In this document: piece by piece, positions 12,206 to 12,793 of the stretch
How positions within the stretch are numbered: position 1 is the first letter of the stretch
Layout: the number at the start of each line of letters is the position of its first letter
Assembly: GCA_947087275.1 (NCBI GenBank)
Contig: CAMUBZ010000001.1
Location: 62,001-126,000 of the forward strand
Reading direction: 5' to 3'
Origin: an uncultured Candidatus Saccharibacteria bacterium
Lineage (GTDB): Bacteria; Patescibacteriota; Saccharimonadia; Saccharimonadales; Saccharimonadaceae
DNA: 64,000 nucleotides
Translations under genes and position numbers: made by a program
Notes under the pieces: generated by a model
Seen by the model: only the letters and a program-made list of their open reading frames with translations
Told to the model about the DNA's origin: nothing
Databases searched by the model: none

Positions 12206-12243
12206 AAAAAGCACGGATTAGATAAGATTGTCCGTGCTTTTTA
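12206..12243 (+). terminator. Strong terminator
   Basis: AAAAAGCACGGA (12206-12217) and TCCGTGCTTTTT (12231-12242) form a 12-pair stem ending in a T-run. It ends exactly where the left terminal repeat of the cassette locus begins. Confidence 0.8.
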
Positions 12244-12453
12244 CATACCTAATACAGTACTAAGGCAGCGGAGGGGGAAAGCGTAGTAACGTCCACCATA
12301 CCCATTCGTATCTGACGGATTGACGTTGGTACTCCCAAAATTAAAATCGTACATAAGAGTACTAATATAAGCACGCGCAGATAAATAAAAGCCACCTTGG
12401 CTGGGTGCATTGAGACGTCCAGCAATAAGATATAAGAACCCGCTGCGCACGAA
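12241..12453 (-). pseudogene. Promoterless 3' cassette of a surface-domain gene, left copy
   Basis: Read from 12453 leftwards the frame gives FVRSGFLYLIAGRLN... through GGRYYAFPLRCLSTVLGM and a TAA stop. Its end (AFPLRCLSTVLGM) is identical to the right copy and the middle differs. The pattern VRSG...G..L...S..GGFYLS...PLRC resembles the C-terminal end of the Fibrobacter-type major paralogous domain (FISUMP), a family named from memory of its consensus. There is no start codon with a ribosome site, no promoter and no N-terminal part, so this is a silent gene end, not a working gene. The final ~42 bases form the left arm of the terminal inverted repeat. Confidence 0.7.
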
Positions 12454-12792
12454 AAGAAGCGATCTTTACCTTATCACTTTTTATTTTTCGATAAGGCAAG
12501 ATGATTCAAATAACAGAGGTAGAGCAAAAATTTTACCTTATCAAATTTTAAAAAACGATAAGGTCTTCGTGCGCAGCGGGCGTATATTCTTGACCGGTGT
12601 CGATGGTGTCTTAGAATACACTACGGTACGTGGTTACGGCTGGTCTTCGCGCAGTGCTACGTATGCATCTTCCATTTCTGCTGGTGCTTATTATCTTAGA
12701 GTTGAGCCAGCAGTTGTCATACCATCAAACGGACCATACGATCGCTACAACGCTTTTCCCCTCCGCTGCCTTAGTACTGTATTAGGTATGTA
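12242..12792. repeat. Palindromic locus with two head-to-head C-terminal cassettes
   Basis: Outer inverted repeat: 12242-12284 against 12750-12792, identical over the first ~35 bases with two or three mismatches later; these encode the shared C-terminus. Inner inverted repeat: 15 bases at 12439-12453 against 12566-12580, encoding FVRSG. Between the inner repeats are two 30-base dyads of the form ACCTTATC-N14-GATAAGGY at 12468-12497 and 12535-12564. The variable cassette bodies lie between inner and outer repeats. No target-site duplication and no transposase are visible. Confidence 0.75.
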
Positions 12793-12793
12793 G
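12566..12793 (+). pseudogene. Promoterless 3' cassette of a surface-domain gene, right copy
   Basis: From 12566 the frame reads FVRSGRIFLTGVDGVLEY... WSSRSATYASS ... DRYNAFPLRCLSTVLGM and TAG. It shares the first five and last thirteen residues with the left cassette while the 50-odd residues between differ at most positions. An open frame extends left into the centre but runs through the dyad and the antisense of the other cassette, so it is not credible as a protein start. As with the left copy, no promoter or ribosome site. Likely a donor or remnant of a full-length secreted protein elsewhere in the genome. Confidence 0.7.

Follow-up and report, generated by a model that had tools for sequence, protein, structure and literature searches.

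Silent C-terminal cassettes scattered through a Saccharibacteria genome suggest a replaceable end for a FISUMP-domain protein

Silent-cassette variation is known from animal pathogens, and the shufflon (Rci/pilV) carries alternative C-terminal ends in opposite orientation. In Anaplasma phagocytophilum, whole variable regions from approximately 100 silent copies of msp2/p44, dispersed in a small genome, are inserted via conserved 5′ and 3′ regions, and the donor repertoires themselves recombine (PMC11946796). Partial copies of an expressed surface gene are scattered in the minimal genome of Mycoplasma genitalium (MgPar and mgpB-mgpC), where recombination has been proposed to occur as crossover and possibly also as gene conversion (PMC2169797), and in Borrelia the promoterless silent vls cassettes, which are contiguous and approximately 90% identical, feed one expression site and recombine segmentally (PMC11499132). 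Among the Patescibacteria, retroelements (DGRs) are known to diversify the C-terminal part of proteins, the variable domains being C-type-lectin folds (PMC8144416). No report of silent-cassette variation in Saccharibacteria or other Patescibacteria was found in the open-access literature, and a 2024 paper on a patescibacterium states that antigenic variation of its surface proteins 'remains to be seen' (PMC11809585).

Here we describe what appears to be such a system in an uncultured Candidatus Saccharibacteria bacterium, represented by a fragmentary MAG (G000; 829 kb, 15 contigs, 91% complete). The window, meaning the whole stretch of 64,000 nucleotides that was analysed, contains a single cassette pair, whereas the system itself is genome-wide. 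At this locus two gene ends, 12241-12453 on the minus strand and 12566-12793 on the plus strand, lie with their 5′ ends facing each other, and its features are as follows.

12241-12453, minus strand: left silent cassette, FVRSG...AFPLRCLSTVLGM, stop (profile match C1:74244-74453:-)
12566-12793, plus strand: right silent cassette, FVRSG...AFPLRCLSTVLGM, stop (profile match C1:74566-74790:+)
12439-12453, minus strand: 5′ constant block of the left cassette (TTCGTGCGCAGCGGG, VRSG), inner inverted repeat
12566-12580, plus strand: 5′ constant block of the right cassette, inner inverted repeat
12242-12291, minus strand: 3′ constant block of the left cassette, arm of the outer inverted repeat
12743-12792, plus strand: 3′ constant block of the right cassette, arm of the outer inverted repeat
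12454-12565, no strand: spacer separating the paired cassettes
12469-12496, no strand: dyad 1, CCTTATC-N14-GATAAGG, role unknown
12536-12563, no strand: dyad 2, CCTTATC-N14-GATAAGG, role unknown

Both reading frames terminate in AFPLRCLSTVLGM and a stop, and both are interpreted, from sequence comparison, as the promoterless C-terminal end of a FISUMP-type protein. As an earlier note on this DNA had described, the pair is framed by nested inverted repeats, the outer one of 50 nt at 94% identity and the inner one, TTCGTGCGCAGCGGG, of 15 nt at 100%. They are not due to chance, because the 50-nt end has dozens more copies in the same genome, in which 92 profile matches were found. The 5′ block is present at nearly all cassettes. 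The constant ends reported in that note were borne out, but its 42-base 3′ block is nearer 50 nt and the genome-wide 5′ core is GTGCGCAGCGG. The dyads between the cassettes are AT-rich, and the 126 nt at 12440-12565 (the spacer with both dyads, plus the left 5′ block) are 98% identical to C11:20896-21021; the cassette bodies of the two loci differ. Among the stretches read, the dyad repeat occurs at cassette loci only. On one side of the pair lie a 264-aa ORF without a named family and then a terminator-like hairpin (12206-12242); the other neighbour is a tRNA-dihydrouridine synthase-like gene. A promoter scan of 11.9-13.0 kb returned four weak matches, compared with 2.1 ± 1.4 in shuffles.

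Some 80-90 silent cassettes are dispersed in intergenic positions across 12 contigs of G000. Sampling of the stretches around matches to the 3′ block, together with the contig ends, yielded 74 ends and 63 complete cassettes, and a profile built from the latter gave its 92 matches in the genome (81 at 68 bits or more), nearly all of them open and without stops. All 63 cassettes are open in frame, while any other frame is open in 0-1 of them; because they had been picked by an in-frame motif, the profile search is the fairer test of openness, and it agrees. A cassette is 65-78 codons long and consists of a 5′ block (VRSG codons), a variable body of approximately 45-60 codons and a 3′ block of approximately 45-50 nt (FPLRC..., stop, TAGGAG), the consensus being FVRSG, a variable body with WSSR...AYxLxF...VxPS, and R..AFPLRCLSTVLGM, with RSG and RCLSTVL invariant. 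Across approximately 70 copies the blocks are near-invariant while the bodies vary, being only approximately 63% alike in nucleotides and differing throughout, with length changes; a lack of other copies in the genome, which would have refuted the earlier proposal of variable cassettes, is thus not what was found. The 86 places taken for statistics sum to 17.5 kb, or 2.1% of the genome. Close neighbours form divergent pairs in 25 of 35 cases (binomial p ~1e-8 against one in four), although tandem and convergent neighbours also occur, and the spacing within pairs ranges from less than 10 to more than 1400 nt. The 3′ block is absent from IMG/VR.

Several further observations concern the cassettes of this genome. 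The 3′ block often lies within approximately 30 nt of the TATAAT-like box of the next gene or of a terminator hairpin (e.g. at C2:109671, C2:119549, C11:29348 and C6:6231), the cassettes filling the intergenic space tightly. Approximately a dozen cassettes combine the usual 5′ block with a second type of 3′ block, CTCCGCTGCCTT...GCCGCGGGGGTGCCGATCTTT, that does not preserve the reading frame (e.g. C9:17616-17807+, L035; C7:44094-44288-, L071; C5:180-386-, L066; C3:61113-61298+, L027); this is perhaps a second class of cassette or of recipient. A loose pattern search for it returned mostly chance matches, which were excluded from the counts. At C1:33807-34027 (L015) a 3′ block runs directly into a cassette body, the two meeting at a short word common to both, GCAGCGG; the junction looks like the product of microhomology-based recombination between two cassettes.

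The nature of the encoded protein was inferred from relatives, which were fetched by sequence and are uncultured Candidatus Saccharibacteria MAGs. Their full-length proteins indicate that a cassette is the counterpart of the final 65-78 codons of a FISUMP-domain protein, and the cassettes are predicted to encode the C-terminal end of a secreted member of this type. The complete gene with the same ends, for which the earlier note had called, was found in two of them: in G024 as an ORF of 609 aa with a hydrophobic signal-like start, ending in PLYFVRSG...FGFPVRCLVY (L040:1456-3285), and in G085 as an ORF ending in PLYFVRSG...IGFPLRCLARQ (L107:5001-6683). The G085 protein passes the cut-off of the NCBIfam FISUMP model TIGR02145 (49.7 bits against 41.65), the G024 protein falls below it (34.5 bits), and with Pfam PF09603 both L107 and L106 score below the cut-off. 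The window cassettes alone match no family model, and cassette C3:78679-78834 matches PF09603 only weakly (12.2 bits, positions 139-186 of 187), yet the place of the cassette at the protein end is clear because the full-length relatives carry both blocks there. Structure prediction failed for the L107 domain (pLDDT 40) and gave a modest model for the FISUMP domain of L114 (pLDDT 58, pTM 0.64). With this model Foldseek found no PDB match at E ≤ 0.001, a sequence search of the PDB gave no relative, and VIA-align returned a weak list (Z 2-3) of mostly C-type-lectin-like domains, the C-terminal domain of Legionella Lcl first, so that a lectin-like fold is weakly suggested by the model and is no more than a lead.

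The recipient in G000 itself is inferred to be the ORF C13:12569-14007, which is homologous to those genes and leaves its contig approximately 25-30 codons before the expected FVRSG, that is, before the variable part. A homologue in the sister species (81% identical) and three of the further homologues also stop at contig ends in the same stretch. Contigs break there as expected of a repeated or a mixed locus, and MAG assemblies cannot tell which. Several contig ends of G000 (C2 5′ and C4 3′, C3 3′ and C10 3′, C13 3′ and C6 3′) lie inside identical cassette bodies or the recipient, so that the assembly is interrupted by cassettes and the expression site is concealed; contig C6 ends in a copy that starts at a motif matching the QLPT of the recipient and is common to the end of C13. 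Other candidate recipients were rejected: two long ORFs with cassettes in G084 (C19:5891 and C5:42330) are read-through into the next gene, and the other full-length FISUMP genes of G000 lack the constant end.

Evidence for exchange between silent and complete copies comes most directly from G024, in which the last 212 nt of the full-length gene are identical to the silent cassette C19:7842-. The match opens with the very first base of the 5′ block and closes within the 3′ block, and the sequences upstream are unrelated. The proposal of silent donors that exchange a C-terminal FISUMP end with a complete gene is supported by this identity, which is the sole one found between donor and recipient, in a MAG listed at 7% contamination. 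The end of the G085 recipient has no twin among the 77 ends of that genome that were read, itself included, approximately half of the repertoire. Further supporting exchange, in nine pairs of G000 loci the two members are 90-100% identical over the whole cassette, from one block to the other, and have nothing in common beyond it, and only three matches, all short and weak, cover part of a cassette; C3:53864/C3:54270 was dropped from the twin pairs as the same DNA seen twice. At 15 cassette ends that are syntenic between G000 and its sister species G084, mean flank identity is 85% and mean body identity 62.9%, compared with 63.7 ± 1.0 for permuted pairs (p = 0.79), so the bodies are no more alike than random cassettes. 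The loci have thus been kept between the two species and their contents replaced.

The blocks vary from species to species. The 5′ block is GTGCGCAGCGG in G000 and G084, GTCCGTAGCGG in G024 and GTTCGCAGCGG in G085, and the 3′ block has LSTVLGM, LSTVLDM, LVY and LARQ in G000, G084, G024 and G085, respectively; within a species they are common to the cassettes and, where it is complete (G024 and G085), to the recipient, a pattern of concerted evolution. In G085, donors C12:7159- and C2:35058- have in common an upstream stretch of at least approximately 150 nt that resembles the recipient, with one difference in the printed stretch, and their bodies diverge exactly at the 5′ block. The longer donors of this genome, C12:7159- (L195), C23:322- (L203) and C2:35058- (L189), start near the QLPT motif of the recipient.

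We consider it probable, with good confidence, that the cassettes form a silent, genome-wide archive of variant 3′ ends that enter the full-length FISUMP gene or genes by RecA-type cassette replacement. The archive would serve one or a few full-length, secreted FISUMP-domain proteins, and a cassette, having no promoter or start of its own, would be expressed only on replacing the corresponding end of a full-length gene. Replacement would take place between the two constant blocks and move the body whole, the bodies being too unlike one another for recombination inside them, and silent loci would also trade cassettes among themselves, each position being kept as its content turns over. The most likely route would be homologous recombination of the RecA type (gene conversion or double crossover) on short homologies. 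A recA gene is present in G000, in which no reverse transcriptase (PF00078) was matched, at 91% completeness and with controls that did match, and in which the single tyrosine recombinase is nearest XerD/XerC but below their equivalog cut-offs; the absence of the one and the Xer-like nature of the other favor RecA-type replacement. The survey of recombinases covered the tyrosine type, and serine recombinases were outside it. The weak point of the RecA-type replacement is that the 5′ homology at most loci is approximately 11-15 bp, which is short for RecA, a problem eased by the longer 5′ homology of some donors; in addition, the replacement model leaves the origin of divergent pairs in intergenic sites unexplained. 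What is inferred includes the direction and rate of transfer, dependence on RecA, display at the cell surface, and any part played in binding to the host or in evading immunity or phage; the antigenic or adhesin variation put forward in the earlier note is likewise a functional inference. Exchange itself is inferred from comparison of MAGs, with switching, expression, surface display and function not shown.

It is unlikely that the cassettes instead move by site-specific exchange, in which a recombinase would cut at the 5′ and 3′ blocks and the cassette would move as a unit. Such exchange would fit three observations: every twin is sharply bounded at its two blocks, the 5′ block is too short for homologous recombination to proceed easily, and the Xer-like recombinase gene sits between two cassette loci (C2:110067-110603). 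Sharp boundaries are, however, also expected if homology is confined to the blocks, the homology of some donors to the recipient extends further upstream of the block, and the lone tyrosine recombinase, nearest XerD/XerC, is far below the integron and invertase cut-offs; XerD/XerC is needed by every genome for chromosome resolution. The dyads, which the earlier note had put forward as possible recombinase sites, are not general, since they or the surrounding repeat occur at approximately 7 of approximately 40 cassette loci and so are not needed at most of them. The recA gene (C5:47311-48093) lies approximately 300 nt from a cassette; the nearness of either gene may be chance, given the cassette density. 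Of the named systems, an integron was rejected on the score of the sole tyrosine recombinase (125.6 against a cut-off of 265 for TIGR02249), and a shufflon because the loci are dispersed over 12 contigs and the 5′ blocks lie inside the pair and not at its outer side.

Dispersed intergenic positions, and divergent arrangement of 25 of the 35 close neighbours with the same sequence at both outer ends, would also suit a MITE-like mobile element that has the 3′ blocks as terminal inverted repeats and happens to carry a gene end. We regard this as very unlikely, because G000 and a sister species have some positions in common but with different content, whereas a transposing element would do the reverse, neighbours can be tandem or convergent at widely differing spacing, and the 3′ block is coding and is the end of the recipient itself in relatives; it may still describe how the cassettes first spread. 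That they are functionless, decaying fragments of an old multigene family is scarcely credible: the cassettes are truncated and promoterless, and some relatives hold dozens of full-length paralogues (G077), but this reading is already contradicted by the open frames of almost all copies, the near-invariant blocks beside variable bodies, the turnover of content at fixed loci and the cassette of G024 that equals the end of an intact full-length gene. Diversification of the protein end by a retroelement, with the cassettes as template copies, is as good as ruled out even though Patescibacteria commonly carry DGRs, which diversify lectin-like C-termini (PMC8144416), for the bodies differ throughout and in length, not at template adenines, and no reverse transcriptase was found; membership of this class was rejected on that account, and it stands contradicted unless the gene lies in the missing 9% of the genome.

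RecA-type replacement from a silent archive, as favored here, would work most like msp2/p44, judging by analogy. Three tests of this likeness can be stated. The first, numerous donors that lack a promoter and combine constant flanks with a variable middle, is passed in G000; the second, an expression site with a complete gene that has the same flanks, is passed in G024 and G085, the candidate of G000 being cut by the contig end; and the third, an expressed end equal to a silent donor elsewhere, is passed in G024 (212 nt), with no such donor found for G085 among the 77 ends read. The cassettes described here nonetheless belong to an unrelated protein in another phylum, a donor is no more than the final 65-78 codons, has a much shorter 5′ block and is often one of a divergent pair, and neither the expression site nor switching has yet been observed. 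Mycoplasma genitalium has nine MgPar loci with long partial copies, in contrast to the 80-90 short, discrete cassettes here, and unlike vls cassettes those of G000 are dispersed, approximately 63% alike and moved whole. In a shufflon the segments cluster beside their gene and each end has its recombination repeat on the outer, 5′ side, whereas here the 5′ blocks point inward and the loci are dispersed. In comparison with DGRs, the variants are stored and not made by mutagenesis.

Among 60 genomes of the genus, profile matches range from none to at least 99, and among 149 genomes drawn across the order more than two matches were found only in members of this genus, indicating that large archives are a feature of some species of one genus. 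G084 has 95 matches and G085 has 148, and the 84 matches of G066 are all in short frames. In G077, of the same genus, the 58 matches are mostly in full-length FISUMP genes of approximately 600 codons, and a multigene family of this kind is an alternative state to the silent archive.

If the archive is what we suggest, a reduced genome devotes 2% of its length to variants of one protein end, an investment that makes the protein a likely point of contact with the host, the immune system or phage, and the system would allow a direct examination of the way in which ultrasmall epibionts deal with a change of host. Like some animal pathogens, the bacterium is apparently able to alter its surface through genetic cut-and-paste, and the same system may also explain the assembly breaks at the recipient gene. 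Surface display and a selecting partner are inferences that rest on the signal-like start of the protein, its assignment to FISUMP and the epibiotic habit of cultured Saccharibacteria relatives, which live attached to other bacteria (PMC12206443). It is possible, though we hold this only tentatively, that an epibiont diversifies its recognition protein from approximately 80-150 scattered cassettes under selection by its bacterial host (or phage) and not by animal immunity, perhaps making use of the very lectin-like slot that is the target of retroelements in other lineages. Were this true, silent-cassette variation would have been turned to the recognition of one bacterium by another.
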